64,000 bases of DNA from Algoriphagus pacificus (GTDB taxonomy: Bacteria > Bacteroidota > Bacteroidia > Cytophagales > Cyclobacteriaceae), in the NCBI RefSeq assembly GCF_017254845.1, contig NZ_JAFKCU010000001.1:1323048-1387047 (forward strand), read 5' to 3'. Each line of letters starts with the position of its first letter. Within the stretch, counting starts at the first letter, position 1. This document shows, one piece after another, positions 31,013 through 62,226 of the stretch. Under the pieces are notes generated by a model. That model had not been told where the DNA came from, searched no databases, and worked only from the letters and a program-made list of their open reading frames with translations. A program made the position numbers and the translations under genes.

Positions 31013-31179
31013 GTGTAAATCCTTGTAATGCCATAAGTTGGCTAAAGAATATTTGCCTAAAAACAGGCTTTTCTTTTATCTTGCAGCCCTGATAGTGATG
31101 GCTTTAACCCACTTCAGGCTTTAATCGTTCATTGGGAAGTTTAAAGCTTGGTTATTTGCCAGTAGAATATGGCCCCGTA

Positions 31180-31199
31180 CCTGCCTGCCGGTAGGCAGG
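31180..31199. repeat. Palindromic insert 1 in the tRNA copy
   Basis: CCTGCCTGCCGGTAGGCAGG, self-complementary over its whole length apart from one G-T pair. It separates the acceptor strand plus bases 8-9 from the D stem. Confidence 0.85.
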
Positions 31200-31211
31200 G
31201 TTCAACGGATA

Positions 31212-31231
31212 TCTACCTGTCGGTAGACAGG
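31212..31231. repeat. Palindromic insert 2 in the tRNA copy
   Basis: TCTACCTGTCGGTAGACAGG, a diverged member of the same family that can still form CCTGTC/GACAGG or TCTACC/GGTAGA stems. It lies between the D loop and the 3' strand of the D stem. Confidence 0.8.
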
Positions 31232-31264
31232 GAACAGCGTTTCCTAAACGCTAGATCTAGGTTC

Positions 31265-31284
31265 CCTGCCTGCCGGCAGGCAGG
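31265..31284. repeat. Palindromic insert 3 in the tRNA copy
   Basis: CCTGCCTGCCGGCAGGCAGG, a perfect 20-base palindrome placed between the C and G of the TTCGATT T loop. Confidence 0.88.
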
Positions 31285-31319
31285 GATTCCTAGCGGGACT
31301 CTTCACTAATTAATAAGAC

Positions 31320-31565: not shown

Positions 31566-31637
31566 GGCCCCGTAGTTCAACGGATAGAACAAGCGTTTCC
31601 TAAACGCTAGATCTAGGTTCGATTCCTAGCGGGGCTA
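31566..31637 (+). tRNA. tRNA-Arg (anticodon CCU)
   Basis: A 72-base cloverleaf: 7-bp acceptor (GGCCCCG with CGGGGCT, one G-T pair), D stem GTTC/GAAC, anticodon stem AGCGT/ACGCT with loop TTCCTAA (anticodon CCT), a 4-base variable loop, and T stem CTAGG/CCTAG with loop TTCGATT, then discriminator A. CCA is not encoded. A T run follows at once. It reads AGG codons. Confidence 0.95.
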
Positions 31638-31709
31638 CTTTTTTGAAATTTGTTTTGAGATAATCAGACTGAAAACCATTAAATTAAAAGCAGTTTGAAC
31701 CCAAAATAA

Positions 31710-61905: not shown

Positions 61906-62226
61906 TTGGAAAGATTTTTTGTTTACATATTAAAATGTGCTGATTCATCTTATTATACGGGAGTTACAAATAATATAGATAGAAGATTTGCAGAGCATCA
62001 AGATGGGATTGATTTTTTAAGCTACACATATAATCGAAGGCCTCTCGAATTAGTTTTTCTGCAAGATTTTCAACAGATAAATGAAGCAATTGCCTTTGAA
62101 AAACAACTCAAAAAATGGAGTAGAGCTAAAAAAGAGGCTTTAATTAGAGGGAATTGGGAGCAATTGAAGGATCTGTCGAAATGTAATAATGAGACGAGTC
62201 ATTTGAATTTTAGAAAAGATAAATGA
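61906..62226 (+). CDS. GIY-YIG domain endonuclease, single-domain (second copy in window)
   Basis: A 106-residue GIY-YIG protein. Motif: FVYILKCADSSYYTGVTNNI (YTG as the second half), Arg in DRRFAEHQ, and a conserved EKQLKKWSRAKKEALIRG helix with Glu. It starts with TTG at 61906; no ATG fits upstream. The protein is of the YhbQ/UPF0213 type and differs clearly from the 80-residue one at 31320. Imperfect direct repeats lie on both sides. Confidence 0.85.
   Translation: MERFFVYILKCADSSYYTGVTNNIDRRFAEHQDGIDFLSYTYNRRPLELVFLQDFQQINEAIAFEKQLKKWSRAKKEALIRGNWEQLKDLSKCNNETSHLNFRKDK

Follow-up and report, generated by a model that had tools for sequence, protein, structure and literature searches.

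A palindrome-broken tRNA-Arg copy in Algoriphagus pacificus is one part of a widespread module of tRNA, GIY-YIG nuclease gene and interrupted tRNA copy

How does a bacterial chromosome come to hold a tRNA copy that is broken by three separate palindromes, each at a loop or junction of the tRNA, and what might such palindromes do there? The locus in question lies in a stretch of 64,000 nucleotides of the Algoriphagus pacificus assembly GCF_017254845.1 (contig NZ_JAFKCU010000001.1, positions 1,323,048 to 1,387,047), hereafter the window. The original prediction saw in the three inserts a mobile palindrome family that tolerates or targets structured RNA, and made no mention of a GIY-YIG nuclease ORF located between the broken copy and an intact tRNA-Arg(CCU). 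With this ORF considered, the hairpin-bearing copy is one part of a larger and widespread module, which consists of an intact tRNA, a GIY-YIG gene and a hairpin-broken tRNA copy, and which has the appearance of a mobile element that is specific to a tRNA and leaves that tRNA intact while using it. The features of the window locus are as follows:

31171..31301, plus strand: broken tRNA-Arg(CCU) copy, tRNA positions 1-71, split by three hairpins (spliced alignment to the intact tRNA)
31180..31199, plus strand: hairpin 1, a 20-nt palindrome one mismatch from perfect, after tRNA position 9, at the end of the acceptor/D-stem linker and before the D stem
31212..31231, plus strand: hairpin 2, a diverged relative of the palindrome, after tRNA position 21, at the border of the D loop and the 3' D stem
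31265..31284, plus strand: hairpin 3, a perfect 20-nt palindrome, after tRNA position 55, within the T loop
31320..31562, plus strand: GIY-YIG nuclease ORF of 80 aa (PF01541), on the same strand as both tRNA copies and between them
31566..31638, plus strand: intact tRNA-Arg(CCU) (ARAGORN; Rfam, 67.2 bits)

A check of the sequence and the spliced alignment agree with the original prediction on the places of the three inserts, on their palindromic nature, on their positions at loops or junctions of the tRNA and on the G that follows each of them; in the wider survey described below, the next base is G for 70 of the 115 distinct inserts. The 20-mer, with up to 3 mismatches allowed, occurs twice in the window, against a shuffle mean of 0.00, and the 5.28-Mb genome contains 16 such sites; as the shuffles held no 20-mer, a chance origin of the palindromes was rejected. 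Neither ARAGORN nor Rfam yielded a match to the broken copy, and in the window locus both call the intact tRNA only. The predicted RNA fold of the broken copy (z -7.1) pairs palindrome 1 with palindrome 3 and is not tRNA-like in shape. A self-splicing intron or another known structured RNA was rejected as well, given that Rfam reports tRNA only in the window and 16 module loci and that the neighboring tRNA is intact.

Within the genus, the module is present at some alleles and absent at others, as is expected of a homing gene. Of the 23 tRNA-Arg(CCU) loci, 19 contain an intact tRNA and no GIY-YIG match, and 4 (G019, G023, G028, and G029) have one, with the upstream flank of the module being common to many of the loci. 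Over 73 nt, the intact tRNA of the window has the same sequence as that of a G001 locus, which is without a GIY-YIG match. In G019 and G023, an intact tRNA is accompanied by GIY-YIG sequence, which is interrupted in G019, and by a tRNA copy that bears a hairpin in the D loop. At the syntenic place (L058), G029 retains a remnant that has decayed and whose hairpin, after tRNA position 9, is degenerate. Beyond the genus, G051, which belongs to another family, carries a hairpin at tRNA position 21 as the window does (L057/L073), and this position is also occupied in L076 and L086, among others. Since the G029 remnant has the position 9 hairpin and G051 the position 21 hairpin, an assembly error, which the original prediction had named as a possible refutation, is unlikely and was rejected. 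The other refutation it had named, a stable and vertically inherited feature across distant relatives, is borne out only insofar as related modules occur in and beyond the genus; their distribution is patchy, with 19 of the 23 same-genus sites empty. In G028, both tRNA-Arg(CCU) matches are hairpin-broken (L056/L047, G028:C11:397.7-398.2 kb, the isotype of L056 being assigned by hand), and an intact tRNA-Arg(CCU) was not found in this 100%-complete genome of 60 contigs; the tRNA may have been lost, be dispensable, have been missed in a gap or be produced despite the insert.

The genome of the window holds seven GIY-YIG matches. Two of these, in C23 near 652 kb, come after tRNA-Met and one, in C50, after tRNA-Lys; a further one, in C23 at 624 kb (L017), lies among tRNA-Thr-like copies that were identified by eye and where ARAGORN calls no tRNA. 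More palindrome-holding tRNA copies surround these tRNA-Met, tRNA-Lys and tRNA-Thr-like loci. Two matches, L021 and L022, have no tRNA nearby: L021, the second GIY-YIG ORF of the window (61909-62112, plus strand), lies between copies of another dispersed repeat, and L022 (G000:C49:95974-96177) is located amid GTCATTGCGAG-type dispersed repeats rather than tRNAs. The setting of L022 suggests that small GIY-YIG genes may adjoin repeats other than tRNAs. Repeats of the same type, with variants of the palindrome family embedded in them, are also found at L010-L015 (G000:C38:103-112 kb).

A scan with five GIY-YIG proteins as queries uncovered at least 541 relatives. Among the best 80 of these, 70 have a tRNA within 400 nt, and in a second set, drawn among the matches listed, 82 of the 123 ORFs do, all 82 on the strand of the tRNA, with 41 ORFs lacking a tRNA within that distance; neither set is a random sample. 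Two tRNAs on the minus strand, at L054 and L063, adjoin ORFs of that same strand. The count of 82 in 123 drops six loci that were fetched twice (L167, L176, L180, L183, L191, and L196) and becomes 93 of 136 with repeated loci counted. The copy alignment and the 194-protein tree described below also omit L178, which is not a repeat, and L168, with inserts identical to those of L074, is probably one species counted twice. The arrangement of an intact tRNA, a co-oriented GIY-YIG gene and a truncated hairpin-bearing copy recurs in Bacteroidota, lineages of Patescibacteria, Omnitrophota, Ignavibacteriota, and Chlorobiota. The search of related genomes for the 20-mer and for tRNA sites, which had been proposed as a check, gave a positive answer: tRNA copies at 15 loci contain the exact 20-mer as an insert, these loci including some from Bacteroidota, several Patescibacteria lineages, Omnitrophota, and Chlorobiota. 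On viral contigs, we found 5 relatives of the window protein, with an ARAGORN tRNA in two of those loci, and the plasmid search returned 5 records only; these match portions of the query at its intact-tRNA end.

The window protein belongs to the GIY-YIG superfamily (PF01541, 59.5 bits versus a cutoff of 22.6). Across 163-165 rows, the active-site columns Tyr7, Tyr18, Gly20, Arg28, His32, and Glu64 are invariant (1.00), and the 53 usable pairs, among which tandem copies are frequent, give a median dN/dS of 0.15. The invariant active site and the low median dN/dS thus point to a working enzyme under selection. In the 194-protein tree, which like the other trees rests on about 80 columns and has many open forks, tRNA isotype requires 38 changes (149 rows), compared to 96.8 in shuffled data (minimum 87), and host phylum 26 changes (67 rows), compared to 29.7 (minimum 27), which is a weak signal. 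With one ORF per locus, isotype again requires 38 changes (91.4 shuffled), and the best 80 of at least 541 relatives alone give 19 versus 37.9 for isotype and 23 versus 25.7 for phylum. The protein hence follows its target rather than its host, as a homing gene should, with isotype followed strongly and phylum weakly. The hairpins take part in this pattern: the nuclease tree is followed by the hairpin-bearing arm (19 changes versus 34.4 shuffled) and by the hairpin type (14 versus 37.2, and 3 versus 9.3 within tRNA-Arg modules).

That hairpin type tracks the nuclease tree might also be expected if the small GIY-YIG protein were structure-specific for a hairpin or cruciform, with hairpin and nuclease moving as a pair in the manner of REPs and their transposase. 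The nearest solved structures to the window protein would fit such an enzyme: these are the UPF0213 proteins BH0048 (1zg2) and EF2693 (1ywl), the nearest relatives by sequence (E 2.6e-6 and 4e-6), together with an SLX1 homolog. The window protein, furthermore, has no separate DNA-binding domain, and among 198 Bacteroidota genomes, all 15 with the exact 20-mer fall within the 122 that have the nuclease family among the matches listed (P = 5e-4). Nevertheless, a purely structure-specific enzyme would not need the strong agreement of the nuclease tree with isotype, and many hairpin sequences serve, so that we regard this pairing as very improbable.

The survey of tRNA copies covered 171 loci with 207 ORFs, in which 171 extra copies were aligned in 122 loci. 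Of the 83 copies located 5' of the ORF, 73 start within tRNA positions 1-3, and of the 88 located on its 3' side, 69 extend to the tRNA end; it is the eroded end of the broken copies that faces the ORF. Three to eight GIY-YIG matches stand in a row at eight loci. The tandem arrays L197, L198, L199, and L200 hold three to eight ORFs at a spacing of about 320-370 nt, and in L198, L199, and L200 a partial tRNA copy is found between the ORFs. Of 118 extra copies compared with same-anticodon tRNAs of other loci, 104 are nearest to their own intact tRNA, 11 are ties and 3 are exceptions. Given this closeness, unbroken repeats would be prone to deletion, and the hairpins could act as a recombination barrier, splitting the direct tRNA repeats around the ORF so that recombination between them does not lose the module; indeed, the inserts chop the homology into short pieces. 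However, any insert would serve this end, which leaves the preference for loops and the hairpin structure unexplained, and the tandem arrays indicate that recombination still goes on. We thus consider a barrier of this kind quite improbable.

The placement of the hairpins is far from uniform. Of the 115 distinct inserts of at least 15 nt, 104 fit a loop or junction, compared to 75.5 expected (P = 3e-10 on the assumption of independence). With a single insert retained for each combination of isotype and position, a safer test because related modules are not independent, 51 of 59 do so, compared to 38.8 expected (P = 2e-4). The expectation that insertion into tRNA copies is frequent is thereby supported, with hairpins recurring at loops and junctions above uniform placement. 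For 84 of the 115 inserts, no more than 5 of 100 shuffles, which preserve base composition only, are more stable than the insert itself. Perfect stems of at least 6, counted by script, are present in 81 of the 134 broken copies, compared to 42 of the 134 intact tRNAs and 33 of the 321 control windows. Among the 142 copies with at least 30 aligned positions, 44 have no insert of at least 15 nt, and in many of those a hairpin, judged by eye, replaces a loop. The tRNA-Ser modules often bear two adjacent hairpins. Hairpins of unrelated sequence occupy the same loops in other modules, and since their sequences differ in this way, the conserved trait is a hairpin in a tRNA arm and not one particular sequence.

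Rickettsia palindromic elements are short dispersed hairpin sequences, some of which lie inside RNA genes. If the second tRNA copy were dead DNA, dispersed repeats akin to these elements, to REPs or to MITEs could accumulate in it passively, with nothing removing them. A broken tRNA copy should be nearly neutral, several inserts share one copy in the window and in L136, and the 20-mer is found outside tRNA copies too, in intergenic DNA and in other dispersed repeats. Yet passive accumulation would not account for the loop enrichment of the hairpins, for the unrelated hairpin sequences in the same loops or for the agreement of hairpin type with the nuclease tree, which extends to the tRNA-Arg modules taken by themselves; the dispersed 20-mers, moreover, show no preference for loops, and altogether this explanation seems unlikely. 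That the 20-mer prefers hairpin loops in general was rejected, with a flanking stem of at least 5 at 2 of 41 distinct sites, compared to 3.2% of 2000 random places; the 41 sites include those in tRNA copies, and one of the 2 stem-flanked sites is the T loop of the window itself. As for one palindrome family at many unrelated sites, the hallmark of elements of the Rickettsia palindromic or REP type, the 20-mer is dispersed, yet hairpins of other sequence fill the same role. Of the original prediction of a mobile palindrome family targeting structured RNA, the recurrence at loops of tRNA copies is supported and a purely free palindrome family is not, the usual partner of the hairpins being a GIY-YIG gene. 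Mitochondrial double-hairpin and repetitive hairpin-forming elements are likewise described in PMC2800124 as short and genome-dispersed, with some inside RNA genes; the modules differ from these and from the Rickettsia elements in having several hairpin families at one kind of place, an adjoining nuclease gene and a duplicated tRNA.

The hairpins might instead act in RNA, the hairpin-bearing tRNA part being kept either to tune the nuclease mRNA, as its leader or trailer, or to block the processing or charging of a second tRNA-like part. Their location in loops is in line with such a role, and so is the covariation of the 22-nt-type double hairpins (11 sequences), for which 94.3% of cells are paired, compared to 80.2% in shuffled data, with covariation of 0.309 versus 0.055 (0 of 500 shuffles for both). 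Hairpins near the ribosome site are reported to regulate several T4 homing genes (PMC2988022). Covariation would, however, be kept equally if a DNA hairpin mattered, and we regard an RNA role as rather unlikely. A leader role as a general rule was rejected, since 88 of the 171 extra copies are downstream of the ORF (83 are upstream).

Free-standing GIY-YIG homing genes among tRNAs are already known from phages. SegB of phages T4 and T6, whose gene is located among tRNA genes, is such an endonuclease (PMC13096335, PMC2988022). PMC13096335 reports that SegB cuts inside tRNA genes in vitro, that its favored motif RAWTSGAAC is found at 23 of 83 mapped sites and aids cleavage without being required, and that tandem amplification of tRNA plus segB depends on the nuclease. 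The modules resemble this system in the GIY-YIG gene among tRNA genes, in GIY-YIG arrays comparable to the tandem amplification, and in the T-loop motif: 19 of 29 T-loop hairpins, hairpin 3 of the window among them, split GTTC|SAWTY at the same point, a sequence that reads as the SegB motif on the opposite strand. This motif closely resembles the general T-loop sequence of tRNAs, being carried by 104 of 117 intact tRNAs, and therefore the match to it is weak when taken alone. The T loop as the only target was rejected as a general rule: 28 of the 73 copies spanning the T arm keep the motif, and hence no single arm is the target, and nucleases of other clades must target other arms. The modules also differ from SegB. 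SegB is a phage gene, whereas viral contigs contain few relatives of the window protein; no favored isotype is reported for it in PMC13096335, whereas the module nuclease tree follows isotype; it is unlike the 80-aa window protein, which is without a separate DNA-binding domain; and hairpin-broken tRNA copies are absent from its account in the consulted sections of PMC13096335 and PMC2988022. A search of the open-licence literature, by title and abstract start, gave among the papers listed none on chromosomal GIY-YIG/tRNA modules with hairpin-broken copies.

The likeness to SegB and the 19 of 29 T-loop hairpins at one point of one motif, together with the recurrent architecture, the co-orientation of ORF and tRNA, the isotype-following nuclease tree, the loop placement of the hairpins, selection on the protein and the empty sites of the genus, favor the reading of the window as one copy of a chromosomal, tRNA-isotype-specific homing module with an intact tRNA and a disarmed copy, to which we assign a probability of roughly 50%. 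In this homing module, a free-standing GIY-YIG endonuclease gene would use one tRNA gene as its site, lying between two same-strand copies of that tRNA, of which the second would be truncated toward the ORF and have one or more arms split by hairpins; as the first stays intact, the host would retain its tRNA. The nuclease would cut an empty tRNA gene in an arm loop, and a donor copy would serve to repair the break, the two halves of the tRNA providing homology. Within the broken copy, the hairpin would destroy the cut site, and perhaps also split the direct repeat and prevent tRNA folding; in the window, the hairpins would correspond to three interruptions of the tRNA-Arg(CCU) copy, at 9|10, 21|22, and 55|56. 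At the donor allele, the broken copy is interrupted and the adjoining intact copy is unchanged, and any target located entirely within the tRNA should therefore still be present in the latter. Homing thus requires the assumption that the target reaches into the flank or that expression is low, and it counts against homing that destruction of a target needs no hairpins, that the window protein is small, that 44 of the 142 longer copies have no insert of at least 15 nt, and that 41 of the 123 ORFs of the second set have no tRNA within 400 nt.

A broader reading, which we put forward tentatively and consider possible rather than probable, is that the modules form an undescribed, multi-phylum class of chromosomal tRNA-gene parasites, in which each small GIY-YIG lineage is matched to one isotype, homes into its gene, lets the host survive by keeping one tRNA intact, and renders its own copy immune through hairpins in the cleaved arm. 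The hairpins would then be a convergent or co-mobilized immunity device, their positions showing the cut site of each nuclease, as the homing module also predicts. Mobile DNA often lands in tRNA genes, which are highly conserved. If this broader reading holds, the modules would be a class of their own. They would explain the palindrome-ridden tRNA copies beside small GIY-YIG genes, and their isotype-following chromosomal nucleases across phyla would be a reservoir of tRNA-gene-specific endonucleases. The modules would also be a natural experiment in how a parasite can use an essential gene without killing its host.
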